Shown piece by piece: positions 32,501 through 54,708 of a stretch of DNA of 63,996 bases. The notes below the pieces were generated by a model that saw only the letters and a list, made by a program, of their open reading frames with translations, was not told the DNA's origin and searched no databases. The stretch lies in IMG/VR virus record IMGVR_UViG_3300008216_002988, positions 1 through 63,996 of that record, one strand, 5' to 3'. The number at the start of each line of letters is the position of its first letter. Within the stretch, counting starts at the first letter, position 1. The stretch comes from a virus. A program made the position numbers and the translations under genes.

Positions 32501-35500
32501 CTTCAATAAAGGTGATTGACAAAGAGTATATCACATCAGCTCGTCAGAACATGCCAGAAAACATGCAGTCTGAAGATATGATCTCTGTTTTGTCGACGCA
32601 AGATGACATACAGTTCACTAGAGACACGCGACCAATAAATTACTTCTTTGCTTTCGAAAAGAGCATGTATCAGACAATTTCTGAAGAAATGCTCAATATA
32701 TTTGCTAGTATAGTCGATTTTAACAACTTAATTGGTGAACCGGTTAACAAATATCGTCATGAATATAAGCAACTTAACAAGCTTCGATCACTTTTCTTCG
32801 AAAGGGTACAAAACACACCAGATTTAGACAAATACGTTGAATTTTACAAGTGGTTTGACGATGCATTGTCTAAGATGCTGGAACAGATGATACCAGCTTC
32901 TGCCGATTTCTCTGATGAAATAAGAACAGTCGTTGAAAGTCACATCTTGGAGCGAAGCAAGTATCAGCACAAGTTCCCGACGCTGGAGATGAAAACAAAC
33001 GAAATCATCGGATCCGCCGAAAATGTACTTCCGCTGTCTCCAGGCTGGGCCAAAACTCACCACCCGGTGTCTGGAGATGAGGCTGATAATGCCAATTGGT
33101 GGAAAACCCGCGCTGAAAGGCACGATGTCATATCTTCGTCTGCCGGTATTGCGGTCAATTCTGCAAAGAACCAAATCCTTCGTGTGGTTAAGAGTGTTAT
33201 TGATAGAAAGAAGACAACACCGTATAGATTCAGCCAAGTACAGAGAAGAACAATTCATGGCGGTATCAACTACCATCAGAATAAACGACGAGACATAATT
33301 TATAACTCAGTATATCCATTTGGGCCAATACTCTCCGGCACAAACGTTCCGTTGAACATCGCAATCACGTTCCAATCCGATCTAGACGCCTTGCCTCAAA
33401 TTGATCACTTGGATCCAAATCAGAAGCGATATATGTCCAGTCGAATGACGCTTTCTAGAAACCAAGAAGACGGCGCACACTACACCCTCAAGGGGGATAT
33501 GGTAGCATTATATAACTTAGTCAGTTCCTCTCGCGGCACTGCTCCAGAAGCTGGCTATAACAAACATGTAGTTCGTGCCCTCACGGGGGCGAATGTTCCA
33601 GCTGGCCAGATTGAATTGGTAAACTTGCACAGTGATACTGTCGGTGAAAGCAATGAGATTCCAATGCAGGGTCCGTTTACTGAAAAGTATGTTGGTGGTC
33701 GCCAACACAGGCACATTGATATAAACAGGGTCAGTTCAACAAAATCTGGCAAAAACAACTTAGATTCGAAAGCCGACCGCCCCGAAGGCTGGAGGCTGCT
33801 TTTGGATTGTTGCTCAGATGAGGATGAGACCGGCGCTATAGCCTTTGTTGGCCCTCAGTATCCAGATGATGGAGTCGGCGGCCCTCTAGGCTCACCACCT
33901 TACTTGATCGATAGGCCAAAAGCTCATCTTTATAGAGAAGTAGCAGCAAAGCGCCCGATTAACATTCGAAACATACGTCAGACAACCGGATCTCCAACAA
34001 TTATTGGTAACTACTCTCATAACTACGAGGTTGTACATACCGTTGGTAGGACACATAATGATCCGTTCTTTAGGGACCAGTCTGTACAATTTGCACCATC
34101 GGCCGAGATACCATTCCTTCGCCGCGGCTCAAAGAATAAGACCGGTTCTGTTGGATACAGAAATCCATTAGGTTTGGTCGATGTACAAAAGGAGACACCA
34201 CCGAAAGAGCAATTAAACTATCGATTGCCGACAAGGACGACAAACAAAACAGTTATAGTTAACAGATTTAGCTCCCCCGGCGGATTCGAAGTAATGTCAA
34301 GAGGTTACCTCGACCCTGCGCACGAAGAACTCTCTCCTTACAACGCGCTCCCCTATAGAAACCTAGGCATCCGAGGCTCTGGCAGTGGCGAAGCTGGAGA
34401 TCAGCTAAGAGCTAACGATCACACCGGCCGCCGCCGCGGCCTGCAGACACTACTGAAACAGAGGTCCGGACAGTTTGGTCATGATGCCGACTTCGGCAGT
34501 GTCAATGCATTACAGTATGTCACAACGCCGGCCTATCACAAGGTACACAGAAACCGAAGGTTAGTACCAAAATTAGCTAGCCCTACAGACGATCAGAGTT
34601 TTATCACAGGCTCTCGCTACGATAACGCGTATGTTACACACGTAATTCCACAAAGTGATATGCAATATCGCTGGATTACAGCATCTGCTCTGTCGGTCGC
34701 TTCAAATAAGCTGCTAGGCTTTGCTCAGTTGAGTGGCGGTATTGCCCCCTCTACGGACATATTGTTCCTCAGTGCAAGTCAGTTTGTCAGTTATACTAGC
34801 TCCGCCGGCCAAAGATTCTTTGGTTCAGAGGATGACGATCTGGAAGCAACTTCCGGCGCCCAGAGAACCGTATGGACTGATTTTGCAGGAATTAACTTCC
34901 ACATATATGAGCCGCTTACAGCATCAACTGGACATTTGGGCTATATCTCTACAGCTCCGGCAACAACATATGCAAATGTCGACATTCTAGACGCGCATAG
35001 AGACTTAGATACAGCTGTGACTTCCGGTTCCATGCTAAACGCACTATTGTTGCACAGGAATGGTCCGTATCAGTACCCATCTTGGAAGCAGGTTCGCACA
35101 GGTCAACATCCAGTCGCGCGATATCAGAGGCGAAACAACATTCTGACAATTAGAACTCAGCCAGAAACAATTGAAACAACATCAGGTGGTAAGACGAAAA
35201 CCATTCAGGGACTCGGGGGAAACTCTTTCATTACATATGTTGAGCCGGCCGTGTCTAACGAGAGCAAGCCTCTGGTTCATATTTTTAAGAGTAGATTAAC
35301 CGGATCCGATGTCTCCCGATCCCGCCGCCAAACTATCAAAATGGCCCACAGTTATACAAATAACTTGACTTACTTTGCAAACATTGAACTTAACAACAAA
35401 TTGGGGACGATCAAAGACTCAGATACAGACTCAATGTTGAATCGCGTAAACAAGGTTCTTTTCGATCCTAATACTGACTCTCCGCTTGATAGTTCTGAGT

Positions 35501-38500
35501 CTATACGATTCATCTACTCCGAGAGGATCTTCCCTCGCCGAAAGAACTCTCCGGGTTTCAACAAGATTCGTACAAGAGAGAACTTTAGCATTGCCAATTA
35601 TTGGGCAGCTGACAGAACATCTAGGGCAAGAGCAAACCCTCTCCCGATCTTCTCAGGTTCCCTCTCAACAGTAACGGGGGCCCTCCCTCCGAAGGTTGGA
35701 CTCCTATCTCAAAGCATTTGGCCGCTTGACGCAGAACACGATGGCACATCGATGTTATCTAATGCTCGTACTCCCGGCAAAGGTGGCCCGGGCCTTTTGC
35801 AAAACAATTACACAACATATCACACAGCCAGCACGTATGCGCCGCTTAAGCAGTATGGCCCACTATATTGCAGAAGAACTCCTGCATCCATATGGGTCGA
35901 TGCCGTCGAAACTTCGGCCAGTTTCTTCCCCGGCGCGACTGTTTGGGAGGCAGCGACTCAAGCAGGCAAGCAACCATTCCAGGCATATGAAGATTTTTCT
36001 GAACATTTGAGATTAGTCGGCAAAGACTACTCCATAATACCAGAATTCAGAATGAGCGAACATCTAGATTATTATATCAACGAAAAGAGGGGCGACTTCT
36101 TAGCAGATCGAAATAGTGTCCTAGAGATCACCGGCGCAACAATAGCAGATAGCTCTAATGAGGATTTCTACAGTGTGTACGCTCACACTGACTTCATGAA
36201 GTATTTTGAAACTGTCGATGAACAATATCACGAGAAAACACTAACAGACGGTACAGAAATTTCTAGGGACAGGATCGCCCTCAAATGTTCCGCGCTACTT
36301 AAATTCCTACCATACGATGGATTCTACCCAGTGCAGAGAACTGTTGAATTGTCTAAATTATTCTTTAAGGACTTTGTTAGCGGGTCTGATGCAAAAGGTG
36401 AAGGCGCCCGTCTGCTGAGTACCCAGCTGGCGCTTAAGTCGACTGCGCGCAGGAACTCAATAAGCCCCGCAGTTACCTTAAACTCGTCCAGGCCATATGT
36501 TGAACCGTTTTTCGCGCCCGGCATCATGTATAACACCATCAAATCAGGTATCGCTGTAGACTATCCGGTCGCGATCAGTACAATGGTCACAGCTAGCTTG
36601 AGAAGGCACACCCTACACGGCACATCGAACACAGACCAATGGTATGTCTCCGCATCTGTTGGCGTCGGCGTCGATAAGCACTTCCATCGCGTTCCATTTG
36701 AGGCAATCATAAAACCATCATCTTATGTTAACCAAGGTACGATTAGCGGTTCTATCATATTCGATATGGAGCCCCATCCGAGTGGCAACTTGGCCGAAAA
36801 GGGGGCGCCGTTCCCCAATGTAGTAGTCACGAGAGAAGGCGGCGGAAAACTTTACGAATTGGCCGCAGAAAACTTTTTTGCTGAATGCTTAAATTTCTTC
36901 ATGAAAGAAGACGAAGAAAAATCTCTTTTGACCACATTCGCATCGAAGCCTGAAAGTGACTTTGGGACCGTAGTGAGTGGCAACTTATACTCAATGAGAG
37001 TCAACTTGGATCGCGCCCCTATCGCATTGTTTGGCAGAAACTCTGCCGGCGCCGCAGCAAATTCAAACCCGGGATTCTATTCGATAAACGAGAATACCTT
37101 CAATATGTATGACAGGCCGTCTGCTTTTGGACCAGCATTCTGTGCGCACCGCACGGTTACGGGCAGTGCCATCGAAGAGCAGAAGACATTCGCATACCAG
37201 CCGGTCACTCCCTCCTACTATGATGGAAAGTCCTCTGCTCTTATTGTTTATCGCCCCGACACGACCGGTCGACCAACGTTAGATGATATCTTTGCAAAAT
37301 CGAAGATCATATGCCAGAGGTCATTCGCCGAGCGCGCTGATGGCAAATACGTTGCATATAGTGATACAGATGGCACTGTTGTTGAATATGAACACTCTCT
37401 ATCTCAACTATTAGCGATGCAAATAACATCCTCCGTTGACATATTAAAGAGCGAAACAATACCAATCCCAGACTCGGATCAGGTTAGTAAGAGATGGATA
37501 ATCCAGCCAAAGTTTGAAACTCCTATATTAAACTTCGATAATTCAGTTGACGTTAATATTCCATCCGGACTTAATTTGCTAGAGTCTGATTACAGTAACG
37601 ATAGTGCAAATAATAGACACATAAGGCAGTATTCCAAGGGCATGTGGCACCAGTACGGAAAGGTCCCAACTGGATCTGCCGGGGTGTGGTTGTCCCTGAC
37701 AACAGACAGCAAGATATCAGACCCAACTGTTGAGGCACAACTGGCCGGCACATACAGCGACTCAAACTCTCTAGCTGATGTGGTTGGCATGCCTTTGCGC
37801 AGAGACCGAATAGGCGAAGTCAAAACATCTAAGATCATCTCCGAGGCCGTCGTCGCAGTTCCGTTCTTGGAGAAGCGCGGCCAGAAGGTTTTCTTCAATA
37901 TATCCCGATCTGATATTGATGCCGCACTTGAGGGTTTTGATGGCGTCGGCGACACGATACAAAACATGGTTGATATGATGCAAAAATATGTCTTACCTCC
38001 GAAGTTCGACTTTATTAAGAACGCAACAATCCAGCCTTTCGCAATGTACATGTTCGAATTTTCTGCAGAGCTAACACAAAAAGATTTGACTGATATTTGG
38101 CAAAACCTCCCTCCAGATCTCTCAGACAGGTTTGAAAACAAGGAAGCGGTCATTGAGCATGATCTGTTGGCTAATGAGTTTTATGGCCTAGAGGGTCAAG
38201 ATTTAGATGGTTCGCTCAAATGGCTAGTCTTTAAAGCTAAACGTCAAGCGGAGAAGAGCTACTTCAACTTACGTAAGGGCATCACAGCCTATAATGCTGT
38301 CGAAGACGGGAAAGAACTTGGCGACTTGTCAAACCTATTCAAAAATAGAAAAAACAAGCCCAGGCTGGTTAAATTAGGTCAGCGAAATATCAATTTATCT
38401 CGACGGCCAGCGGCCAAGGTATCTAGAACTCGGCTTTCTAAAGTTGGTACCCTCATGTCCGGTAGATCGAAGGTGGACCTAACAGAAGAGAGAGTGCCGA

Positions 38501-38634
38501 AGTACAGCTACAACTGGCCATACGATTATTTTTCATTAGTCGAGCTAATTAAGATTGACGCAGCGGTCCAATACGCAACAGAAGAGAGGGACGAGAATCC
38601 GATGATTCCTATTCCGTCTGAGGGTGAAAGATAG
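29506..38634 (+). CDS. Giant baseplate/tail protein (3042 aa) with LamG-like domains
   Basis: At 9.1 kb this is the largest gene in the window. Residues about 175-360 form a concanavalin-like LamG domain (TVEFWLKKK, WHHYAFSF, LYVDGDL, GSLDEFRYW). Residues about 560-620 contain IYNNLSYIYKSKGTEKSFRNL then FGI, resembling the KGT…L-R-L-FGI stretch of P2 gpI-type tail proteins. A second LamG-like region lies near 670-905 (WNLAVRV, RIYMGAHR, SSCRFWLDYL). The remaining 2100 residues are beta-rich and unassigned. It may combine a gp7-like wedge role with surface-binding modules. The frame is open throughout with no sign of breakage. Confidence 0.75.
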   Translation: MSIKHLFDKVHIDKSTAGTNSDQLGGEVESERFHSAKIAKDDRIIPQVDFSKPENFVFYGSAERYYDDAIKNIYQTYPYDGSLYEKLDWENSASYIDLYVFENLYPRTNGYIRFDRDGADSSTSIVSDYGIFNSADQEYITIKGGPGIGGGPQNAGANIYNTGSFQESNLKLDPVEGTTVEFWLKKKAFNTSRTKKEVLFDLWNGEHSSSSGYGRLTIELTGATYSQATTTSGRSFRVTYQSGNLADAGAPTHGFQNESIGTVDTLTSSVADNTWHHYAFSFLSASNGVKTRLYVDGDLNEEKILGSNGAREITGSLIARIGALRTAPSGAVGAHGSTALDGAGKLSGSLDEFRYWKTQRSSKEIGRHWFTQVGGGTNTDTANTKLGVYYKFNEGILGNSTDATVLDYSGRVTNGAWTGYIAGARETGSAINEATSTNQEFLDPILYRNHSSVNSLISRMRLSGSSFDHTNTTSLFSSLPSWMQEEDQKSGDLLLDLTQIMSSYFDSVQLQISELPKLKDVEYISGSSKPNNFNSTLLSSMGFLAPEIFIDAEIIENLAARSEDRKYEKSLEHTKNLIYKNIYNNLSYIYKSKGTEKSFRNLIRCFGIDDDIIKLSTYGNNVTHKFRNNYRVVSTPKKYVNFNDNGNFEGTVFQMSSSKNSNSLPYIDAAKQLTGGYGFTLQTEVVLPKKANTGDSFYSRQRYTDLTASLFGVHTARTSSTNTSNTQWAEPDVVNFQVHAVRDEAESDNVRFVLTGSGDGYFPELSSSLFEGAYDNTKWNLAVRVKPAKFPHVDSIHGTTGSNSGADINYSRYYTVELYGNQTDAGSIQNEFTVTGNIDLQQLSPGTSADQFIYGARRIYMGAHRTNFTGAVLQRTDAKISSCRFWLDYLDDETLRAHARDVNNHGAKNPYRNAYLFEGKSIYNDSRELVGRGRNFEVPQIETLALNWDFNQVTGSNAAGEFNVVDFSSGSVEKKKRYGWIGDITKAQYTARGYGFATSSIKVIDKEYITSARQNMPENMQSEDMISVLSTQDDIQFTRDTRPINYFFAFEKSMYQTISEEMLNIFASIVDFNNLIGEPVNKYRHEYKQLNKLRSLFFERVQNTPDLDKYVEFYKWFDDALSKMLEQMIPASADFSDEIRTVVESHILERSKYQHKFPTLEMKTNEIIGSAENVLPLSPGWAKTHHPVSGDEADNANWWKTRAERHDVISSSAGIAVNSAKNQILRVVKSVIDRKKTTPYRFSQVQRRTIHGGINYHQNKRRDIIYNSVYPFGPILSGTNVPLNIAITFQSDLDALPQIDHLDPNQKRYMSSRMTLSRNQEDGAHYTLKGDMVALYNLVSSSRGTAPEAGYNKHVVRALTGANVPAGQIELVNLHSDTVGESNEIPMQGPFTEKYVGGRQHRHIDINRVSSTKSGKNNLDSKADRPEGWRLLLDCCSDEDETGAIAFVGPQYPDDGVGGPLGSPPYLIDRPKAHLYREVAAKRPINIRNIRQTTGSPTIIGNYSHNYEVVHTVGRTHNDPFFRDQSVQFAPSAEIPFLRRGSKNKTGSVGYRNPLGLVDVQKETPPKEQLNYRLPTRTTNKTVIVNRFSSPGGFEVMSRGYLDPAHEELSPYNALPYRNLGIRGSGSGEAGDQLRANDHTGRRRGLQTLLKQRSGQFGHDADFGSVNALQYVTTPAYHKVHRNRRLVPKLASPTDDQSFITGSRYDNAYVTHVIPQSDMQYRWITASALSVASNKLLGFAQLSGGIAPSTDILFLSASQFVSYTSSAGQRFFGSEDDDLEATSGAQRTVWTDFAGINFHIYEPLTASTGHLGYISTAPATTYANVDILDAHRDLDTAVTSGSMLNALLLHRNGPYQYPSWKQVRTGQHPVARYQRRNNILTIRTQPETIETTSGGKTKTIQGLGGNSFITYVEPAVSNESKPLVHIFKSRLTGSDVSRSRRQTIKMAHSYTNNLTYFANIELNNKLGTIKDSDTDSMLNRVNKVLFDPNTDSPLDSSESIRFIYSERIFPRRKNSPGFNKIRTRENFSIANYWAADRTSRARANPLPIFSGSLSTVTGALPPKVGLLSQSIWPLDAEHDGTSMLSNARTPGKGGPGLLQNNYTTYHTASTYAPLKQYGPLYCRRTPASIWVDAVETSASFFPGATVWEAATQAGKQPFQAYEDFSEHLRLVGKDYSIIPEFRMSEHLDYYINEKRGDFLADRNSVLEITGATIADSSNEDFYSVYAHTDFMKYFETVDEQYHEKTLTDGTEISRDRIALKCSALLKFLPYDGFYPVQRTVELSKLFFKDFVSGSDAKGEGARLLSTQLALKSTARRNSISPAVTLNSSRPYVEPFFAPGIMYNTIKSGIAVDYPVAISTMVTASLRRHTLHGTSNTDQWYVSASVGVGVDKHFHRVPFEAIIKPSSYVNQGTISGSIIFDMEPHPSGNLAEKGAPFPNVVVTREGGGKLYELAAENFFAECLNFFMKEDEEKSLLTTFASKPESDFGTVVSGNLYSMRVNLDRAPIALFGRNSAGAAANSNPGFYSINENTFNMYDRPSAFGPAFCAHRTVTGSAIEEQKTFAYQPVTPSYYDGKSSALIVYRPDTTGRPTLDDIFAKSKIICQRSFAERADGKYVAYSDTDGTVVEYEHSLSQLLAMQITSSVDILKSETIPIPDSDQVSKRWIIQPKFETPILNFDNSVDVNIPSGLNLLESDYSNDSANNRHIRQYSKGMWHQYGKVPTGSAGVWLSLTTDSKISDPTVEAQLAGTYSDSNSLADVVGMPLRRDRIGEVKTSKIISEAVVAVPFLEKRGQKVFFNISRSDIDAALEGFDGVGDTIQNMVDMMQKYVLPPKFDFIKNATIQPFAMYMFEFSAELTQKDLTDIWQNLPPDLSDRFENKEAVIEHDLLANEFYGLEGQDLDGSLKWLVFKAKRQAEKSYFNLRKGITAYNAVEDGKELGDLSNLFKNRKNKPRLVKLGQRNINLSRRPAAKVSRTRLSKVGTLMSGRSKVDLTEERVPKYSYNWPYDYFSLVELIKIDAAVQYATEERDENPMIPIPSEGER

Positions 38635-42761: not shown

Positions 42762-45700
42762 ATGGGTAAATTACAAATAATATTAGAGCCTTCGCTCCAT
42801 GGTCCGACACTAGCGCAGAGGAACAACCCTCAAGATCCGTCCGTAAGACAGTTTGGAAACACGACACTCGGCGCACACTACAAAACTCACGGAAACAGCC
42901 CCGCGACATTCAATCAGCCAGACATGTTTAGGGCCACATGTGGCCGCTATTGGACAACGGACCTCGCTCCGGGCCATGGTCCGTTGATATACAGGAACAG
43001 GAGTTCGGAAAACCCCACTGGTGATCCCGCGTTTGTCAACGCCATATGGCCGGTGTCACTTCAGGGAATGAACGAGAATAGTGAATTAATCCATGTTCCC
43101 TTTGAAATCACTTCCATGGTGTCCATCGGTCACGCCTCGATGCTGCCCGGTAGTCTTTACACTGCTCTTTTAGCAGATCCAGAGAGTGTTGGTGCCATAT
43201 ATCAGCTAGGCAAACTCTCCAATGGCCCCGGCCCCGGCCCAGTGAGGACAATTAGCATGACAATGAGCTATTCTCATGAACACTTTGCCATGGGATCGTA
43301 CGCGGGATCTGTGCCGGAAACTTTAGCAAACCCAGGTTATACGAATTGGAGAAAGTATATTTTAGGTGGTCCGGTAATCTCGGGTCAATTGGCCCCCATG
43401 AAGGGCTTGTTTAATTTACATTCGCCGACCCTCTTCCCACAGCACATGACAGATCATGTGTTCTATATGAATCGCCCATATGATCGCGGCGAGGCAGCTT
43501 ACATACAAAATAATTCAGTTGCAACACTCATGAGTGCCCGGGCACAAGGGACTTATAATTACTTCCTTTCCAGTCGGTATGAGATGGAACTCGATGAACT
43601 TCTCATGCCAAATTCATATGTGGTCTACAATGGAATGAATACATCAACCGATGTACAGGGTTTCGAAGCGCAGAATCAGACGATCAACAATGATCTTATA
43701 ACCTATGATGGCGCTGTCAATCTACCAACAAATACCCTTCAAATACATGAAGAGGTTGTGCCAACGACGCATCCCGGAGCAAGGCCCCGTCCATATCTAT
43801 CTGAAGTTGCGCGCCGTATCAATCGAGTGATTGAGGATGAACCAGAATTTGTCGATGCAGTTAGAAAAAAGCATGCATATATCGGAATATCGAATAATAT
43901 TACGAGCCGCAATGAACAATCGGTAGATTATCTAAACAACCATGAACTATACCCCATGAGCGTTGTCTTGGACTTTGATTCTAAGGCCGATGGCGTAGAC
44001 TTTTATTCTGTTCTCTCTTCGCCAACATATTCTCCGACATTTAATATGGTCGACCCCGTTATGTATCATATTATGAGAGCAGACATAGCTACAGATGGCG
44101 TATTAATACCGCCCGCGTCCCCCGCGTCGGAGAACTATATAGACTTAAGTGCCCTTTCACAACACCTTGCGGGACAGATAACAACACCTGGGGCATACTA
44201 TCAGACAGCGCGTATGTCCTCTCAGATATCGACTTTAGATGGCTTAGAGAATATTAACCTCACTGGGTATCCGAATGGAGCCTCTACGGGCCCGTACGAT
44301 CTTAGATGTCTGGACCTTTTCGGCGTTATGACAGAACTGCACAAGACCTCTCCAGTTGGTGAATATGCTTCCGAAGAGATCGGCGCCGTGCCCTCTGCGC
44401 TCTTTGGTCCAACAAAAGAACATGGAATTATTAATGGATATGGTACGATTGTTGGTTCGGATGTTTCCACCGCCGGCGAAACCCCCTTATCACACCCAGT
44501 GTCCCACATCAAATTCCAGAAGCTTAAAGATACCTACAAAGCGCTCTGGGATATGGTTATAAAGAATCAAAGAAATTGGTCTCAAATAATGGATGGAGAG
44601 ACTGCATATGTCGAACCTCTATTGTATAAGATCATCAAATATGATGAAAATAACAATAAGTTACAGACATTTTATTTACCCCGATCCGCAGACAAAGATT
44701 CTGCCGGCAACCCAATCCCTAGCACGAGAAACCTAAATTTCGCAGACACGCAAATATCCCATGGGAAAAGATATAAATATGATGTTTACGAGTATAATCT
44801 AGTTGTAGGATCCGAGTATAGGTACCGCGATGCAGAGACCAGCCCAGCCCTACCGACGCCGCCCCAATACCGCCCCGGCATTAGCAAGATTTTAGGATAT
44901 GGGAAAGCTTACGGTAATGCATGGTCGTCCGTAATGGGCCCCGAAGATTCAGAAATAAGTCGATTTCACTTGGCACCACACGAATCCCACTTCAACAACC
45001 CGGCCCATCCCGCGATGGTCGATTTTGATATACCAGTTGATCCGACCACTGCCGTTGCCGGCAACGCCGAAACGCTTCATGCCGAAGTTTTCAACGGAGA
45101 ACCCGCCGATCTGCCATCTGGCCTTAACCACTTTTTCTTAGACCTTATTGAATATGACTCATCCGGCAACCCAATTCAGTCAGAGGCAGTAAGACTAGAT
45201 CTAGGTGAGACCCTGACCCAAGAAGTTCGGACTGAGAAGTACTCATGGAAGCTAAGGGTGGAGTCGATAGAATCTGTGTTGAATAACCATCCGGATTTAA
45301 CATATACGTATCACTGTAAATATGTGTCGGCCCAATATTCCAGCTATGCACCCGATGGTAGCCCGAACGGTTCTCCCAACCTTACAGAATTCCTCCCCGG
45401 GCTTCCGATACATTTTGTAATAGCCACAACATCCGGCATTATAGAGCAAGGTCTAGAATCTCTATTCGGAATCCCGTCTTCGGCGGCAGCTCAAGTTCCA
45501 GCCGCTCTAGCTGCAGCCGCCTCAAATCCCAGCGCTAAATCAAGCACATCGAATACTCAGCTAACTGCAGTTGCCTCAACTTCCGCCTTTGCGCATACTC
45601 AGCTAGCCGCAGCCGCCTCAAATTCCAGCGCTAAATCAAGCACATCAAACACTCAGCTAGCTGCAGCCGCCTCAAATTCCGGCTTTGCATCAAACACTCA

Positions 45701-46706
45701 AGTTGCCGGCGCTGCAGCGTCGACCCCTTCCTTGGCCCCCACGGACCAGTCAGGGTTTAAAATGCTTTGGCGAACGGGCCCGCACGGCTGGGAGCCAGAT
45801 TTTATTCCATCTTCCGAAGACGGTACCGCCACAGTTAACATAGATCATGCACCCTCTGTTAAGATATATGAGTGCCCATACTACACAACCGGTTTGGTCC
45901 AAGCCAGAGATCACGCCCCCAGTTTACCCGAAGTGAATGTGGTACCATACAGGGGAAATAACAGAGATATATTATTTTTACTCAATTCGCCGGCCCTTAG
46001 TTATTCAATGGAGCCCATTGTTATAGAACCATCCGACGATGAAATATTTAACGAACTAAGGAACGCCCACAATCGCCCAACTGGCCCACTAGTCTTTAAA
46101 GCAGATGATAGAAATATCAGATATCAAGTATATAGAACAACCCAGAGGCCAAGCAGTTATAGTGATTTCTCTGGCCGGCTCTTAACGACGGTTAGTTCAG
46201 AATTGGAAGAATCAAAGCTTTCTACGGGTGCTGCTCTCAAGGACCAGTTACAATCAAACACAAAATATTATTACACCTTTAGGGCTGTCGATGGACACCA
46301 TCAGGTTTCAAACCCAACAGCAGTGTACGAGATTGAGCTGGTTGATGAAGATGGTCGTATCTTCCCGATTATAAAAACTATAGAATTTGAGGGTGCCCTG
46401 CCGACTTTGACCAAGCCACTGAAGAAATACTTGAGCATTGCTCCCGCACTGAGTCAGAGGATGTTCAATGCAGAACAGATTCCTACTACGGGGTCGGCAG
46501 GGGATCCAGAATATCAACTAGAGCACAGAGTCTTAGGCGTTGAGTCAGATTCGATTTGGGCCCCATCGAGTCAGTCTGGCCCCGTATGTGATAGAACATC
46601 TACAAAAACTTATAAAATCCGAGTTACTTCAAAATCTACGGGCAAAAAGCTTGATTTAAATATAAAGTTCACAGAATCTTCAATTGTGAACCCCGAGCAT
46701 GAATAA
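42762..46706 (+). CDS. Large structural protein (1314 aa) with FN3-like segments
   Basis: A 1314-residue protein rich in Pro, Tyr, His and Asn in its first 600 residues, without a recognised family. Residues about 615-690 (LYKIIKYDENNNKLQTFYL, YKYDVYEYNLVVG) and about 1120-1200 (IRYQVYRTTQRPSSY, YYYTFRAVDGHHQVSNP) resemble fibronectin type III-like strands. Between them is an Ala/Ser/Thr/Asn-rich repeat linker (residues about 917-980). FN3-like domains are common on phage tails, where they may bind surface sugars loosely. Tail or fibre protein by context. Confidence 0.6.
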   Translation: MGKLQIILEPSLHGPTLAQRNNPQDPSVRQFGNTTLGAHYKTHGNSPATFNQPDMFRATCGRYWTTDLAPGHGPLIYRNRSSENPTGDPAFVNAIWPVSLQGMNENSELIHVPFEITSMVSIGHASMLPGSLYTALLADPESVGAIYQLGKLSNGPGPGPVRTISMTMSYSHEHFAMGSYAGSVPETLANPGYTNWRKYILGGPVISGQLAPMKGLFNLHSPTLFPQHMTDHVFYMNRPYDRGEAAYIQNNSVATLMSARAQGTYNYFLSSRYEMELDELLMPNSYVVYNGMNTSTDVQGFEAQNQTINNDLITYDGAVNLPTNTLQIHEEVVPTTHPGARPRPYLSEVARRINRVIEDEPEFVDAVRKKHAYIGISNNITSRNEQSVDYLNNHELYPMSVVLDFDSKADGVDFYSVLSSPTYSPTFNMVDPVMYHIMRADIATDGVLIPPASPASENYIDLSALSQHLAGQITTPGAYYQTARMSSQISTLDGLENINLTGYPNGASTGPYDLRCLDLFGVMTELHKTSPVGEYASEEIGAVPSALFGPTKEHGIINGYGTIVGSDVSTAGETPLSHPVSHIKFQKLKDTYKALWDMVIKNQRNWSQIMDGETAYVEPLLYKIIKYDENNNKLQTFYLPRSADKDSAGNPIPSTRNLNFADTQISHGKRYKYDVYEYNLVVGSEYRYRDAETSPALPTPPQYRPGISKILGYGKAYGNAWSSVMGPEDSEISRFHLAPHESHFNNPAHPAMVDFDIPVDPTTAVAGNAETLHAEVFNGEPADLPSGLNHFFLDLIEYDSSGNPIQSEAVRLDLGETLTQEVRTEKYSWKLRVESIESVLNNHPDLTYTYHCKYVSAQYSSYAPDGSPNGSPNLTEFLPGLPIHFVIATTSGIIEQGLESLFGIPSSAAAQVPAALAAAASNPSAKSSTSNTQLTAVASTSAFAHTQLAAAASNSSAKSSTSNTQLAAAASNSGFASNTQVAGAAASTPSLAPTDQSGFKMLWRTGPHGWEPDFIPSSEDGTATVNIDHAPSVKIYECPYYTTGLVQARDHAPSLPEVNVVPYRGNNRDILFLLNSPALSYSMEPIVIEPSDDEIFNELRNAHNRPTGPLVFKADDRNIRYQVYRTTQRPSSYSDFSGRLLTTVSSELEESKLSTGAALKDQLQSNTKYYYTFRAVDGHHQVSNPTAVYEIELVDEDGRIFPIIKTIEFEGALPTLTKPLKKYLSIAPALSQRMFNAEQIPTTGSAGDPEYQLEHRVLGVESDSIWAPSSQSGPVCDRTSTKTYKIRVTSKSTGKKLDLNIKFTESSIVNPEHE
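45511..45702 (+). repeat. Two tandem imperfect ~96-base repeats, Ala/Ser/Asn/Thr linker
   Basis: Unit 1 (45511-45606) and unit 2 (45607-45702) differ at a small number of bases and by a 3-base indel. Each encodes about 32 residues with the pattern LAAAASN, SAKSSTSNTQL, AVAS or AAAS, then FA and TQ. Each unit is itself two similar halves that begin with CTGCAG or CCGCAG followed by CCGCCTCAA. The reading frame is kept, so this is a coding repeat that forms a flexible linker inside the 1314-residue protein. It is not a CRISPR array, because there are no spacers. Confidence 0.75.
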
Positions 46707-47710: not shown

Positions 47711-48787
47711 ATGGCAAGCAATACTTCTACATTTAAAACATTTCTAAACAACGACGTTGTTTCGACGCGCACTCTACTTCACGAGGCGCTTCCCATTACG
47801 GGCGCAATTGTTTCTGGCACATACGGCGGCAACAATATTAAAAACTTTTCACATGGTATGTTCCAGAGTGTTTATGATTACCCGTACCTAAGTTCCTCTG
47901 CGAATCATATTTTTGATATTGCAGTTGGATACTCTCCCAACTCTCACATGTCTTCTTCGACTTCTGTACAGAACGCAAAGAAGATTAACATCTACAATCA
48001 GATGGCACAGCTTTTAGTTGGCTACGATTCTGATGGAAAAATCAAAGAGTTCGATTCCGATGGCGATTTAAGTGGCGGACGTAAAATCAAGGAAGCTTTC
48101 TTTATCAACTTTTCCAGGCTTCTCACTAAAGATGAGATTAAGAAGCAAAGCTTCTCCATGACAGTTGTAACCGGTGGCGCATGCACTAACCCAACAAAGA
48201 ACTTAGCAATTGCTGATTTAAACGCAAACACTAACTACAAAATCAACTCGCCGGCCGGCGAATATGCTGTCTTATACACCGGCTCCACATCCGGCGATAC
48301 AGCGCAGGGCGTCGGCCTACTATACTATCAGGCGGGAATCGCCGTTGTTACAGCTAGCGTTTTCCGCGGCCGGCCAAACGACATTGGTGGCTCTGGCGTA
48401 GCAGATTATTTTGGCCCACAGAATGTCCCAACGCTGAGAAAGAACAGCATCACTGGTTCATTAACAGGATCTCAGATTTCTTCTTCCGCAGATGGGTTTA
48501 GAAACAGATTGAAGAACATCTCCTTCAACAACACGACGGAGTTAAACTCAACAATCTACTTCTGCAGAGCAAACAACAATGAATTCAATTACAGTTCCAA
48601 TCCGACCTATGTTTCAGGAAGTAAGATTCAGGTTAAGACAAATGCAGTCGACAACCCAGTCTCTTACATCACTACGGTTGGCTTATATTCTGCAGACAAT
48701 GAACTGCTAGCTGTTGCTAAATTGTCCGAACCTCTTAAGAAAGATCCACAGAACGAATTTACATTGCGCGTGAGACTTGATTACTAG
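47711..48787 (+). CDS. Virion structural protein, paralogue of the next gene
   Basis: A 358-residue, Ser/Asn-rich protein. Its C-terminal 70 residues (NPTYVSGSKI, YITTVGLYSADNELLAVAKLSEPLKK, ending FTLRVRLDY) match the C-terminus of the next product, and both N-termini start with a short F-x-x-ND segment. It includes a collar-like region with INIYNQMAQLLVGYD. The two look like a duplicated structural protein with a diverged middle. AAAGGATACAAAG precedes the ATG. Confidence 0.65.
   Translation: MASNTSTFKTFLNNDVVSTRTLLHEALPITGAIVSGTYGGNNIKNFSHGMFQSVYDYPYLSSSANHIFDIAVGYSPNSHMSSSTSVQNAKKINIYNQMAQLLVGYDSDGKIKEFDSDGDLSGGRKIKEAFFINFSRLLTKDEIKKQSFSMTVVTGGACTNPTKNLAIADLNANTNYKINSPAGEYAVLYTGSTSGDTAQGVGLLYYQAGIAVVTASVFRGRPNDIGGSGVADYFGPQNVPTLRKNSITGSLTGSQISSSADGFRNRLKNISFNNTTELNSTIYFCRANNNEFNYSSNPTYVSGSKIQVKTNAVDNPVSYITTVGLYSADNELLAVAKLSEPLKKDPQNEFTLRVRLDY
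48782..48787 (+). promoter_or_regulatory. Possible copy of the TACTAR upstream motif
   Basis: TACTAG lies 29 bases before the GTG at 48811, the same place as TACTAA or TACTAG before the genes at 46760, 54753 and 63289. It includes the stop codon TAG of the preceding gene, so part of the match is forced by coding sequence. Recorded only as supporting evidence for the recurring motif. Confidence 0.25.
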
Positions 48788-48810
48788 CCTATTTATTGAA
48801 GGGAGTAATC

Positions 48811-50112
48811 GTGTCTTACATATTTAAATTTAATCGCAATGACATTTTTGTTAATACGATAGAGGCTAATCCTCGCGTTGATTTTCAAATCTACAGTGGC
48901 TCCGCTTATTATAATAACAGAACTGCCATCTCTGGGGCCTTTACTTCAAGTGTGGTAGCACCACCGGGCCATTTATCGTTATATGAGATGAATGTTGATA
49001 GATCGGGCTTAGTGGCCGAACTGGAAGGCAACCACGCCCATCTCGCAGGTACTGACGCAACTGCCCATTGGGCCGGAGAAAATCCAAGAATCCACTCATT
49101 CGTAGTCAAAGACGGCACAAGACTATCTTTCAGGACCGCAACGACTGCGCAATTCAACTCTGCCACCCAATTCGGCGCTCATATATACAAGCAATATCCC
49201 CTGGTCTCCTCTTTACACAGAGAATTTTATTACCCAACTACTGCGCGAACCACCCCTTCGCGAACAGCTCCTTCTGAGACCGGCGACTATCCTATATCTT
49301 CCGGAGCAATATCTCACCTATACGCCCTCAAGACAACAATGAACCACTATACGAGGCTCAGTCCCCACTATGCGTATACTTCCTCTAGAGGAGATTTGAG
49401 CTGGGATAAAGAAACACAGTATGTTAACTTGGTCTCCGTACCGTCTATATTCTATGGTTCGGCGATAGAAAAGGGTACTGTAGATTTAAAATTCTATATA
49501 ACTGGTACACTAATTGGGCAACTTCAAGACATAAGAAGGAACGGTGAACTAATTCAAGTTGCTCCCCGCGGCAGTACTCGTTCCGGAAGCATCGCCGGCA
49601 CAGTTCTATACAATGAGGGGTTCCTTATATTAACGGGCTCTTGGCCACTAAGCTCAAGTGCTAAAGAAGAATATTTTAAAACAAACTCGCAAGACTACCC
49701 TAGGTGGGTTCACTTTGCCAGCTGTCTTTCTCAGAGTGCCGAGACTACTCCATCCTCAAGCTATAGTTTAAACTTCAACGGGACAACGCGTACGCCAACA
49801 ATGACGATGATGGCCCATGCCAAAAAGGGCATGCTCAATCATTCGAACAATCCAACATATGTTAAATATGGGGAGTCGGCCATACCCTCTACAGGTTCGA
49901 ACGGCTATATAGAAAACACCGAAAAAGAAATTAAAAATATTGTTAAATCGCCGTATAATGATCCTACAGGGAGTTTTAAGAAGGTTACATATATCACAAA
50001 AATCGGAATATATGATGAGAACAAAAACCTTATTGGGATTGCAAAATTGGCCAATCCTGTAAAGAAGACCGAAGAGCGCGCGTTTACTTTTAAATTAAAA
50101 TTAGATATATAA
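48811..50112 (+). CDS. Virion structural protein, paralogue of the previous gene
   Basis: Start set at GTG 48811, five codons inside the longest frame, because GGGAG lies at the right distance and the protein then begins SYIFKFNRNDIF, like its neighbour. The 433-residue protein shares the C-terminal module with the 47711 product (NPTYVKYG, YITKIGIYDENKNLIGIAKL, ending FTFKLKLDI). The middle is unrelated and rich in Ser, Thr and Tyr. Likely part of the tail or virion surface. Its stop forms TAATG with the RuvC-like gene, linking structural and DNA genes. Confidence 0.65.
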   Translation: MSYIFKFNRNDIFVNTIEANPRVDFQIYSGSAYYNNRTAISGAFTSSVVAPPGHLSLYEMNVDRSGLVAELEGNHAHLAGTDATAHWAGENPRIHSFVVKDGTRLSFRTATTAQFNSATQFGAHIYKQYPLVSSLHREFYYPTTARTTPSRTAPSETGDYPISSGAISHLYALKTTMNHYTRLSPHYAYTSSRGDLSWDKETQYVNLVSVPSIFYGSAIEKGTVDLKFYITGTLIGQLQDIRRNGELIQVAPRGSTRSGSIAGTVLYNEGFLILTGSWPLSSSAKEEYFKTNSQDYPRWVHFASCLSQSAETTPSSSYSLNFNGTTRTPTMTMMAHAKKGMLNHSNNPTYVKYGESAIPSTGSNGYIENTEKEIKNIVKSPYNDPTGSFKKVTYITKIGIYDENKNLIGIAKLANPVKKTEERAFTFKLKLDI

Positions 50113-50639
50113 TGATCCTAGGATTAGACATCAGTACCAGTATAACTGGTTACACTGTATTAGATGAAGATAGTAAAATTGTTTTGTGTGATCATATCGA
50201 TCTACGTAAAAAGAAGAACTTTTTCGAAAAATCTATTTGCGTCGAAGAAGTTCTAGAAAATATTAAAAAAGAATATTCCATAGATCAGGTCTATATTGAA
50301 TCGCCCTTTACTTTCTTTAGGTCCGGTGGTTCTTCAGCAACCACGATGGCCATTTTACAAAGATTTAATGGCGTTATTTCTTGGATGTGTTATAATATCT
50401 TTAATACAGAACCGAACTATCTCGGCGCAACTGCTGCTCGTAAACTCTGCGGCATCACCGTCCCCCGCGGCCAAAAGGCAAAACAAGTTGTTGTGAAGTT
50501 TGTACTTGACAACGTGGATGGCTTTCATGTAGAATATACAAGAAGTCAGAATCCAAAGCCCGGTTATGCCGACAGGGCGGATAGCTATGTGATTGCAAGA
50601 GCCGGTTTTATTGAGTGTACGCAGAAAAATTTAAAATAA
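50112..50639 (+). CDS. RuvC-like nuclease (Holliday junction resolvase fold)
   Basis: A 175-residue RNase H-fold protein. Asp6 in MILGLDIS, Glu63 in YIESPF and Asp154/Asp157 in ADRADSYVIA sit in the order and spacing of RuvC catalytic acids. KKKNFFEK and GITVPRGQKAK supply basic residues for DNA binding. RuvC-type enzymes cut four-way junctions; in phages they resolve branched DNA before packaging. T4 uses the unrelated endonuclease VII (gp49), so this could be a replacement. It overlaps the primase start. Confidence 0.8.
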   Translation: MILGLDISTSITGYTVLDEDSKIVLCDHIDLRKKKNFFEKSICVEEVLENIKKEYSIDQVYIESPFTFFRSGGSSATTMAILQRFNGVISWMCYNIFNTEPNYLGATAARKLCGITVPRGQKAKQVVVKFVLDNVDGFHVEYTRSQNPKPGYADRADSYVIARAGFIECTQKNLK

Positions 50640-51550
50640 TAAAAGAAGTTCTTGGTGTCGGATATAAGTCTAATGACGAATATCTGTTTTTTTGCCCATT
50701 TTGCAAGCATCATAAACGAAAGCTTTCTGTAAACGTCGAGAAAGACGTTTTCAAATGTTGGATTTGTGACACAAGAGGTCGCAACCTTCAGAGGATTGTT
50801 AGAAGGTTTGGTACATTTCATCAAAAGCAAAAATGGAAAGAGCTAACGCAAACCGTCGATATATCCTTGTTCGACGAACTGTTCAGTGGTGTACTAGAGG
50901 AGGAACCAGATGAGCCCGTTTTCCTTCCGCCCAGTTTTGTGTCTCTAGTGAATAGCCATTTACCTTTGACTTCTTTGCCGGCCCGAAAATACCTTAAGAG
51001 CCGAGGGATAACAAAGAAGGAAATAACTAGGTGGAAGATTGGATATTGCGCTTCTGGAGATTATGCCGGCCGAATAATCGTTCCATCCTTTAACGAGGAC
51101 GGGAAGATAAATTACTTTGTCGCAAGAAGTTATGGTAACGAATATCCAAAATATAAAAACCCACCATCCAGCAAGGATATGGTGTTTAACCACCTTTTCA
51201 TCGATTGGTCTTCGGACCTAGTTATCGTTGAGGGTATCTTTGACGCGTTCGTCGCCGGCGCAAACTCAATTCCCCTTCTGGGCTCAACTCTTCGCGATGA
51301 CTCAAGCTTATTTAAGCAGATCGTCACAAACGATACACCGGTCTACATCGCACTGGATCCAGACGCAGAAAAAAAATCTATGAAATTAATAGAAAAGTTG
51401 TTGACATATGATGTTGAGTTATATAAAATAGATATAAGTCCCCACTCAGATGTTGGGGAAATGACAGCAGAGGACTTCCAAAAGAGAAAGGACGAAGCCC
51501 CCCTCATGTCTTTCGATTCTTGTTTGATGAGAAAGGCTATGATGATTTAA
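50615..51550 (+). CDS. 61: DNA primase, T4 gp61/DnaG-like
   Basis: A 311-residue primase. A CHC2-type zinc finger is made by Cys27-x2-Cys30 and Cys48-x2-Cys51, and the toprim core shows Glu206 in IVEGIFDA and Asp248/Asp250 in ALDPDA. A basic RARKYL…RWKIGY middle region matches the primase core. It makes RNA primers for lagging-strand synthesis, working with a replicative helicase not seen here. The GTG start at 50615 lies inside the RuvC-like gene with a weak binding site; it is kept because it places the zinc finger at the family's usual distance from the N-terminus. Confidence 0.85.
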   Translation: MYAEKFKIIKEVLGVGYKSNDEYLFFCPFCKHHKRKLSVNVEKDVFKCWICDTRGRNLQRIVRRFGTFHQKQKWKELTQTVDISLFDELFSGVLEEEPDEPVFLPPSFVSLVNSHLPLTSLPARKYLKSRGITKKEITRWKIGYCASGDYAGRIIVPSFNEDGKINYFVARSYGNEYPKYKNPPSSKDMVFNHLFIDWSSDLVIVEGIFDAFVAGANSIPLLGSTLRDDSSLFKQIVTNDTPVYIALDPDAEKKSMKLIEKLLTYDVELYKIDISPHSDVGEMTAEDFQKRKDEAPLMSFDSCLMRKAMMI

Positions 51551-51552
51551 TT

Positions 51553-54500
51553 ATGATTAAAATTGCACACGCCGCTGATATTCATATCAAAAACCTTAAG
51601 TACCACTGGGAATACAACCAGATCTTCGACAAAATGTACGACCACCTTCGACAAGAAGAGGTCGACTACATTTATATCGGAGGAGATATTGCACACACGA
51701 AAACTCAAATCTCTCCGGAATTTGTTGAGATGTGTTCAAGATTTTTATCTACCCTTGCAGACATCGCACCTACTGTTGTAATCTTGGGAAATCACGATGG
51801 AAACCTGAAGAATTCTTCTCGCCAGGACGCAATCACTCCGATTGTGGAGGCCCTAGAGCATCCAAACTTGCACTTGCTTAAAGATTCTGGAGAATTCACG
51901 TTAGACAACAAAGTCGTTTTCAACGTATTGTCTGTGTTTGATGAAGAGAATTGGATCGACCCTTCGAACAGCGAAGCAATTAACATTGCTCTGTATCACG
52001 GTTCAGTTTCAGGTGTACAGACCGACGCCGGCTGGGTCATGGACTATGGCGATCATGATGTATCTATTTTCGCCGGCCATGATTTCGCGATGCTTGGCGA
52101 TATCCACAAGACAAATCAGATCCTTGACGAAGATGGCCGCGTACGCTACTCTGGATCAATCGTACAGCAGAATCATGGCGAAACAAACGATAAGGGGTTT
52201 CTGATTTGGGAGATCGAGAGCAAAGATGATTTCACTGTACGACATGTTGAGTTAAAGAATCCGAAGCCTTTTATTACAATTGAACTGACCCGCAAAGGGC
52301 GCATGCCACGTGGCGTCAATATCCAATCCGGAGCACGAGTTCGGTTGGTTTCAAACAATAACTTACCCCTGGAAGCCATGCGCCGCGCTGTCGAGGTGGC
52401 CAAACATAGGTTCAGCCCAGAGAGTATTACTTTCTTAAATCGCGCTGCAGGTGAGCGAGGCACCGTCGATGGCGCCTCAAGTAATCTTATTGAGGAGAAT
52501 CTCAGAGACATCTCCGTGCAAGAGAAGTTTATGCGCGAATACTTGAAGGATTATGAGGCCTCGCAAGAGGTGATGGAAAAAGTTTTTGAGCTGAATAGGA
52601 AATATAACAAGGCTGCTGAGTCAGGTGAGGACATCTCCAGAAACGTCAACTGGAAGCTTAAGAGTTTCAAATGGGATAATTTGTTCAACTATTCTGATGG
52701 AAACGTTGTCGATTTTGAAAAGCTTTCTGGTATTGTTGGGATCTTTGGTAAGAACTACTCTGGAAAGTCTAGCGTTATTGATAGCCTTCTTTTCACATTA
52801 TTCAATTCCACTTCGAAGAACGAGAGGAAGAATCTCAATGTTATTAACCAAAACAAGGAGTTTGGCCAAGGCACAATTGAAATTGAAATTGGAGACAACT
52901 GCTATACTGTTGACCGACGCTCCGAGAAGTATATAAAGAAACTCAAGGGTAAGGAGACTCAAGAGGCGAAAACAGATCTAGAGTTTAATTCTAAAAATAA
53001 GATTACTGGAGATAGTACCAGTCAAAATGGACTAACGAGGATGGAAACTGACAAAAACATTCGAAAGGTTTTTGGTTCTCTAGATGATTTTCTTCTTACA
53101 TCTATGGCTTCGCAGTTGGACTCCTTGTCTTTTATTAAGGAAGGTTCAACCCGCCGTAAGGAAATCCTTGCTAAGTTTTTAGATTTAGAAATTTTTGAGA
53201 AAAAGTACAAGCTAGCGAAGGAAGACGCCTCTGACCTACGCGGAGCCCTTAAGCGATTATCCGCCAAGGAATACGACGAGGGCATTGAGAAATCGGAAGA
53301 AGAGCTTCGCCTGAATGAGAAGCATCTTAAGAAGCAGCAATTGCTTTGTGCCGATCTTAAGAAAAAAATAGAAGAAAAAGAAGAATCAATAATCCAACTA
53401 GAAGAGAAGATTGGTTCGATACCTACGGAGATAATTGACCTTCTTGCTGTCTCTACAGAAAGGGAGAATAAGAGCCTTGAGGTGTCTTCTTTAAAAGAGA
53501 GAGTGGAAGAGCAGAGAAAGAAAATAATCGATTGTGATTCTACTCTAGAAAACATCAACGAGTTTATGGACAACTTTGACGTTGAAGAGCTAGGCCAAAA
53601 GGAAGAAGATGTAGAAGCCCAGCGCATAAACTTAGCGAAGATCGTACAGTCCGCGCGCGATACAGAAAAGGATATCAATAACAAGAAGTCCAAGCTAGCT
53701 CTACTAGACGAAGTTCCGTGCGGCACCGAGTACCCCACGTGTAAGTTTATCCGCGACGCCCACCGGGCCCAGAAAGCATTGCCAAACTTGAATTCGATGT
53801 TGTCGAAAACCCTTGTCAGCGCAAAGGAAGCCAAGGAACAGATCGATCAACTGAATCCCGGCAATATCGGTGATATGAGAAATACGTACAACGATGTGCT
53901 ATTTCACAAAAACCAGCTGGAGATCAGAACGAAGGATTATAAGTTAGATCTAGAACAGACTAACGCTTCGATCATCTCTTTACAAAAGGAGGTTGGCGAA
54001 CTGGATGCGAAGATAAAGCAATATGAGGACAACAGGGAGGCCATTGAAAACCTAGAAGCCCTAACAACTCAGAAATCGAATTTCCTAGGAGATCTGGAGA
54101 CACACAGAACTGGTCTAGCTCAGTGTGATGTGGAAGTCATGGAACTCTACAAGCTTCACGGCTCCCTGGAACAACGACTTCAAAATCTAAAAAATCAAAA
54201 GAAGGAATTGCAAGGCCTGCGAGAAGAATATTCAGCTCACGACCTTTATATGAAATGTATGCATTCGAACGGAATTGCTTACGATATTATCAAAAAGCAG
54301 CTTCCGGTGATTAATGAGGAAGTTGCAAAAGTTTTGGCGAATATTGTTAGTTTTGAAGTTTTCTTCGAAGACGACGGACGACGCCTCAATCTCTTTATCA
54401 AACACCCGTCCCATGAAGCGCGCCCCCTAGAGATGGGTTCCGGAGCAGAGAAGACAATTGCTTCCATGGCGATCCGCTTGGCGCTACTATCTGTGTCGAG

Positions 54501-54708
54501 TCTTCCGAAAGGCGATATTTTTATTCTTGATGAGCCCGGTACCGCACTGGATGAAGACAATATGGAAGGATTTGTGAGGCTTCTGGATCTTGTTAAGTCT
54601 TACTTTAAAACAGTTCTCCTCATATCTCACTTAGACAGTCTCAAGGACTGCGTAGATACCCAGATAACTATTGAAAAAGTAGATGGTTACGCAAATGTAA
54701 GGTTGTGA
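51553..54708 (+). CDS. Mre11-Rad50 (SbcD-SbcC, gp47-gp46) single-chain fusion
   Basis: Start set at ATG 51553, where the Mre11 motif KIAHAADIHIKN begins; 1051 residues. The N-terminal part is an Mre11 nuclease: Asp9 and His11, Asp45 in GGDIAHT, Asn80-His81 in LGNHDG, and later histidines in ALYHG and FAGHD. From about residue 385 it becomes Rad50: Walker A FGKNYSGKSS near 397-406, coiled coils on both sides of a Cys723-x6-Cys730 hook, the MGSGAEKT signature near 961, and Walker B IFILDEP near 990. In T4 these are separate proteins, gp47 and gp46, that resect DNA ends for recombination-dependent replication. Confidence 0.9.
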   Translation: MIKIAHAADIHIKNLKYHWEYNQIFDKMYDHLRQEEVDYIYIGGDIAHTKTQISPEFVEMCSRFLSTLADIAPTVVILGNHDGNLKNSSRQDAITPIVEALEHPNLHLLKDSGEFTLDNKVVFNVLSVFDEENWIDPSNSEAINIALYHGSVSGVQTDAGWVMDYGDHDVSIFAGHDFAMLGDIHKTNQILDEDGRVRYSGSIVQQNHGETNDKGFLIWEIESKDDFTVRHVELKNPKPFITIELTRKGRMPRGVNIQSGARVRLVSNNNLPLEAMRRAVEVAKHRFSPESITFLNRAAGERGTVDGASSNLIEENLRDISVQEKFMREYLKDYEASQEVMEKVFELNRKYNKAAESGEDISRNVNWKLKSFKWDNLFNYSDGNVVDFEKLSGIVGIFGKNYSGKSSVIDSLLFTLFNSTSKNERKNLNVINQNKEFGQGTIEIEIGDNCYTVDRRSEKYIKKLKGKETQEAKTDLEFNSKNKITGDSTSQNGLTRMETDKNIRKVFGSLDDFLLTSMASQLDSLSFIKEGSTRRKEILAKFLDLEIFEKKYKLAKEDASDLRGALKRLSAKEYDEGIEKSEEELRLNEKHLKKQQLLCADLKKKIEEKEESIIQLEEKIGSIPTEIIDLLAVSTERENKSLEVSSLKERVEEQRKKIIDCDSTLENINEFMDNFDVEELGQKEEDVEAQRINLAKIVQSARDTEKDINNKKSKLALLDEVPCGTEYPTCKFIRDAHRAQKALPNLNSMLSKTLVSAKEAKEQIDQLNPGNIGDMRNTYNDVLFHKNQLEIRTKDYKLDLEQTNASIISLQKEVGELDAKIKQYEDNREAIENLEALTTQKSNFLGDLETHRTGLAQCDVEVMELYKLHGSLEQRLQNLKNQKKELQGLREEYSAHDLYMKCMHSNGIAYDIIKKQLPVINEEVAKVLANIVSFEVFFEDDGRRLNLFIKHPSHEARPLEMGSGAEKTIASMAIRLALLSVSSLPKGDIFILDEPGTALDEDNMEGFVRLLDLVKSYFKTVLLISHLDSLKDCVDTQITIEKVDGYANVRL

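Follow-up and report, generated by a model that had tools for sequence, protein, structure and literature searches.

The gene at positions 51553-54708 of the window (the whole 63,996-nucleotide stretch analysed, IMG/VR record IMGVR_UViG_3300008216_002988) encodes, in a marine tailed phage, an Mre11(SbcD)-Rad50(SbcC) fusion as a single polypeptide. One open frame runs on the + strand from the ATG at 51553, which sits 2 bases past the primase stop, to the stop at 54708 (1051 aa). With Pfam, the Metallophos domain was matched at residues 2-176 (calcineurin-like phosphoesterase, PF00149; 39.7 bits against a cut-off of 21.5) and SMC_N/AAA_23 at residues 372-1041; with PHROGs, SbcD (phrog_100, 4.8e-29) was matched at residues 1-271 and SbcC (phrog_77, 6.5e-55) at residues 313-1046. 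The proposal of an earlier sequence-only reading, that Mre11 and Rad50 are joined in one frame, is borne out by 1051 open codons with Pfam and PHROGs matches to both halves. The parts of the gene are as follows.

51553..54708, + strand: Mre11/SbcD-Rad50/SbcC fusion gene, 1051 aa (single open frame; Pfam and PHROGs for both halves; 132 distinct fused sequences aligned)
51553..52440, + strand: Mre11-like phosphoesterase and capping region, ~residues 1-296 (Pfam, PHROGs, residue invariance in 132/132)
52510..52623, + strand: helix-loop-helix, helices 320-334 and 338-357 (AlphaFold2 secondary structure; conserved block)
52648..53187, + strand: Rad50 N-terminal ATPase half, ~366-545, with Walker A GKNYSGKSS (399-407) and Q521 (Pfam, alignment, AlphaFold2)
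53188..54261, + strand: predicted antiparallel coiled coil, ~546-720 and 731-903 (AlphaFold2 model)
53713..53742, + strand: hook loop 721-730 at the coil apex, with C723-x6-C730 (alignment, AlphaFold2 model)
54436..54633, + strand: motifs of the Rad50 C-terminal half, namely the signature-like GSGAEK (962-967), FILDEP as Walker B (D993/E994) and H-loop H1026 (alignment)

Conserved residues and predicted structure of the two halves

The nuclease ligands in the window protein are D9, H11, D45, N80, H149, D183 (usually His) and H185, with H48 and H81 conserved besides; all nine residues are invariant in 132/132 aligned sequences. Six of the seven canonical Mre11/SbcD metal ligands (D,H,D,N,H,H,H) are kept, and the sixth, at the position of P. 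furiosus His206, is Asp183 in 132/132, such that the last motif reads GDIH (residues 182-185) in place of the canonical GHxH. The sequence-only reading had counted all nuclease motifs as present, which holds for the other ligands and fails at this last motif, where Asp183 replaces the His ligand. GHxH is found in the unfused T4 gp47, S-SM2 gp47 and Moorella phage SbcD and in the fused protein of Listeria phage LMTA-57; GDIH is found in Microcystis phage Mel-JY01, Tenacibaculum phage pT24 and the uncultured phage LR756501. Asp183 is a variant inside the Mre11/SbcD family and no failure of homology, and its chemistry or metal preference may differ.

A change from His to Asp at residue 183 might instead inactivate the nuclease half and leave the protein only a structural DNA tether, as the presence of Asp in 132/132 fusions and of GHxH in T4 gp47, S-SM2 gp47 and Moorella phage SbcD could suggest, but the remaining ligands are all invariant, which is unexpected for a dead enzyme, and Asp is able to ligate Mn or Fe in metallophosphoesterases. 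The same His-to-Asp change has also been reported for Mimivirus R555 (PMC3175470), and we consider a pure tether very unlikely.

In the ATPase half, the Rad50/SbcC motif set is present (G404-K405-S406, Q521 of the Q-loop, S963-G964-A-E966, D993-E994 and a conserved H1026), and K405, Q521, S963, G964, E966, D993 and E994 are invariant in 132/132 sequences. The ATPase and signature motifs named earlier were thus all recovered as conserved, from Walker A and the Q-loop through the signature and Walker B to the H-loop.

The AlphaFold2 model was computed for the monomer from 30 sequences (mean pLDDT 75.3; pTM 0.48) and is read here within domains, as relative domain placement is not established by it. 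In the prediction, the phosphoesterase and capping strands reach ~296 and a helix-loop-helix follows at 320-357; after a linker of ~8 residues, Rad50 begins with its N-terminal half at 366. Coil helices span ~546-720 and 731-903, the hook loop (721-730) forms their tip, and the C-terminal ATPase half comes last; within the hook loop, residues 722-728 have pLDDT below 50 and the fold is not predicted. In known complexes, the Mre11 helix-loop-helix is the Rad50-binding site. Foldseek searches matched Mre11, Rad50 and SbcCD entries in the PDB; against BFVD, the best matches were full-length fused repair proteins of Tupanvirus, Harvfovirus, Yasminevirus, Terrestrivirus and Catovirus, followed by those of Tenacibaculum phages pT24 and PTm1 and Listeria phage LMTA-57.

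Gene neighbourhood and proposed role

Two replication genes lie upstream of the fusion.

50112..50639, + strand: RuvC-like Holliday junction resolvase (upstream in 69/76 relatives)
50615..51550, + strand: DnaG-type primase, directly upstream of the fusion (upstream in 74/76 relatives with enough flank)

Downstream are small genes, then the terminase large subunit and a T4-type portal. The order resolvase-primase-fusion-terminase-portal is conserved, with terminase found in 75 of the 94 relatives that have downstream sequence. Each of five relatives of 186-204 kb has one Metallophos match and one SbcC match, both being the fusion, and one RecA-family gene. The window, a 64 kb fragment of a phage genome, has one phosphoesterase match and no RecA-family gene was seen within it.

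Several other frames of the window were recorded. Two genes without Pfam or PHROG match (47711-48787 and 48796-50112) precede the resolvase and are conserved there in 66-67 of 76 relatives; in loci L129 and L130 the two are partly similar to each other. A 1314 aa frame without Pfam or PHROG match (42762-46706) and a very long frame of 3042 aa (29506-38634) are both probably structural.

The fusion very probably corresponds to T4 gp47/gp46 and acts, as one protein, in processing DNA ends for the phage. Its most likely role is end resection in the manner of T4 gp46/gp47, serving recombination-dependent replication; this is supported by the single-copy fusion and RecA-family gene in the five large relatives together with the replication-gene neighbourhood. 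We infer the oligomer, the contact in cis, zinc binding and the role as follows. Two copies would pair through their Mre11 parts and ATP-bound Rad50 heads into an M2R2-like particle. Each Mre11 part would contact its own Rad50 at the base of the coil through its C-terminal helix-loop-helix, and the fusion would thereby replace a non-covalent joint. The two-cysteine hook at the coil end and a second such hook would bind zinc together. Endo- and exonucleolytic trimming of DNA ends would be controlled by opening and closing driven by ATP and would leave 3' tails, which a phage RecA/UvsX-type recombinase would use for recombination-dependent replication. In T. maritima, ~28 Å separates the ends of Mre11 and Rad50, a distance that 9-12 residues could bridge (PMC3175470). 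Fusion may plausibly fix the ratio and geometry of the complex.

The main task could alternatively be host DNA degradation or the countering of host defence rather than phage recombination, given that T4 gp46/gp47 are also required for host DNA degradation (database annotation); we give this only a slim chance, as the fusion sits in a resolvase-primase replication block and its large relatives encode a RecA-family gene, although the roles are not exclusive. Being short and naturally fused, such an Mre11-Rad50 protein lends itself to use as a single-chain model of end-processing machines; the clade supplies more than 100 intact fused examples.

Relatives of the fusion and spacing of the hook cysteines

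In a first scan of IMG/VR, the same protein was found at 40 loci, 41-100% identical and full length wherever the contig permits, and a profile scan gave at least 593 confirmed relatives. Two IMG/VR scans together with Microcystis phage Mel-JY01 supplied 112 family loci; 105 sequences, that of the window among them, align as full-length fusions, and the shorter copies all end at contig edges. Two further scans brought the set to 132 distinct sequences; because a fused query seeded the searches and some members are near-identical, the set is no measure of fusion frequency among phages. The search for the fusion in other phages that had been suggested earlier thus returned 131 further distinct viral sequences, each on a separate contig and with the same uninterrupted fusion.

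The linker is free of stops and frameshifts in ~130 full-length relatives, and the fusion therefore withstands the suspicion, raised with the original proposal, of a stop codon lost between the two parts. Third codon positions hold most differences between the window and L002 (82% identical) in every domain, linker included; at residues 272-372, the differences fall at 59 third, 11 first and 5 second positions. This codon-position pattern is that of purifying selection across the fusion junction. Mre11 and Rad50 genes are usually adjacent, and on a Vibrio campbellii replicon their spacing is so tight that a tblastn match reads through both, but the 131 independent uninterrupted fusions and the codon-position signature in the linker rule out a lost stop codon as the source of the fusion and leave the chance of an assembly or sequencing artefact practically negligible.

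A GTDB scan gave three loci, two with clear phage neighbourhoods. The third, L130 (CP070664.1, 900211-914091), lies in a candidate division WOR-3 "chromosome" bin with a phage-type resolvase, a primase and a truncated, partly masked fusion of 698 codons, and is likely a prophage or a binning error. Cellular homologues were accordingly rejected, given the phage neighbourhoods of two loci and the phage-type primase and resolvase beside L130. Among the plasmid matches listed, only separate SbcD and SbcC were found, including the in-frame read-through look-alike of Vibrio campbellii, and Moorella phage SbcC as query found no relatives. In Listeria phage LMTA-57 (L044, 4908-7937), a fused SbcD-SbcC CDS encodes 1009 aa, with GHYH and a CPTC hook; it is alone among Listeria phages in the matches listed, so either an independent fusion event or an error in sequencing may explain it. 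In L017 (1984-5133), the N-terminal third is of the GDTFH type seen in L027, L029 and L030 and the rest resembles the L007 group, and the gene looks recombinant.

The C-x6-C hook noticed at the outset is read in the window protein as C723-x6-C730, with the two cysteines at the predicted coil apex (AlphaFold2). At least two hook cysteines are present in 132/132 sequences, with varied spacing (n=132: x6 in 83, x2 in 27, x7 in 11, x1 in 7, x3 in 2, and a three-cysteine form in 2); the variation was noted across the window, L003, L004, L029, L036, L097, L109, L141 and others. Trees were quick, with SH-aLRT support only, and the hook alignment of row L124 is uncertain; on the head tree (nuclease and ATPase heads, hook and coil excluded), the hook label needs 17 changes, where six states would take at least 5, and the starred branches by themselves require 13 changes for the x6 group. 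On separate trees, the label changes 16 times for the nuclease, 14 for the ATPase heads and 15 for the coil. A swap of the hook together with the whole coil is unsupported (coil trees 13-17 steps, head trees 14-17); since step counts are similar on coil and head trees, exchange of the hook would be local, or the changes convergent. A YDP.C..C sequence is common to C-x2-C loops of different lineages, which may reflect local exchange rather than independent invention.

We tentatively read the hook as an evolutionarily labile dimerization tip in which two cysteines are kept while the spacing switches among x1, x2, x3, x6 and x7 by local exchange or convergence; on this reading, which falls somewhat short of probable, the spacings would amount to new zinc-hook geometries, and these may determine which enzymes pair. 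The zinc hook has been described as a highly conserved CXXC motif (PMC5093744, PMC9569753). A small comparison of cellular SbcC gave only three readable hooks, all C-x2-C, a number too small to serve as a control. We found no account of hook-spacing plasticity in the open-access literature searched. The changeable tip is the only feature that looks unreported, the fusion itself being already known, and the cysteine spacings found across the clade make up a natural series that could test how much hook geometry matters.

Comparison with known systems

Viral Mre11/Rad50 fusion was described in 2011, and the present gene is ordinary in its class. Yoshida, Claverie and Ogata listed thirteen such fusions, including Mimivirus R555 and one in Bacillus phage 0305phi8-36, with others in plasmids and eukaryotes, and reported that R555 homologues are abundant in marine and aquatic viral metagenomes on scaffolds with SPO1/Twort-type phage primase genes, that R555 has a GDxxH motif with Asp in place of P. 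furiosus Mre11 His206, and that fusions arose more than once (PMC3175470). The window fusion resembles R555 in its single-frame N-Mre11-Rad50-C order, Asp at the Pf His206 position and GDxxH (D183 and H48 invariant), and shares with the metagenomic R555 homologues a phage primase neighbour and abundance in aquatic viruses; it differs in being ~300 residues shorter (1051 versus 1351 aa), probably mainly through a shorter coil, and in belonging to tailed phages. Its R555-type membership rests on these shared features and on structural similarity to proteins of mimivirus relatives rather than on tree placement.

The fusions of Mel-JY01, pT24 and LMTA-57 share the single frame and domain order but are 21-30% identical to the window fusion and have C-x2-C hooks. 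LMTA-57 (GHYH) looks like a separate fusion, and its GHYH, set against GDIH in Mel-JY01, pT24 and LR756501, fits the repeated origin of fusions (PMC3175470). T4 and cyanophage gp47/gp46 have the same nuclease and ATPase modules, a hooked coiled coil and a place in phage recombination and replication, whereas they are encoded by two genes with small genes between and carry a CPTC hook and GHxH. E. coli SbcCD and archaeal and eukaryotic Mre11-Rad50 share the domain architecture and fold, and differ in having two polypeptides, long coils and a C-x2-C hook.
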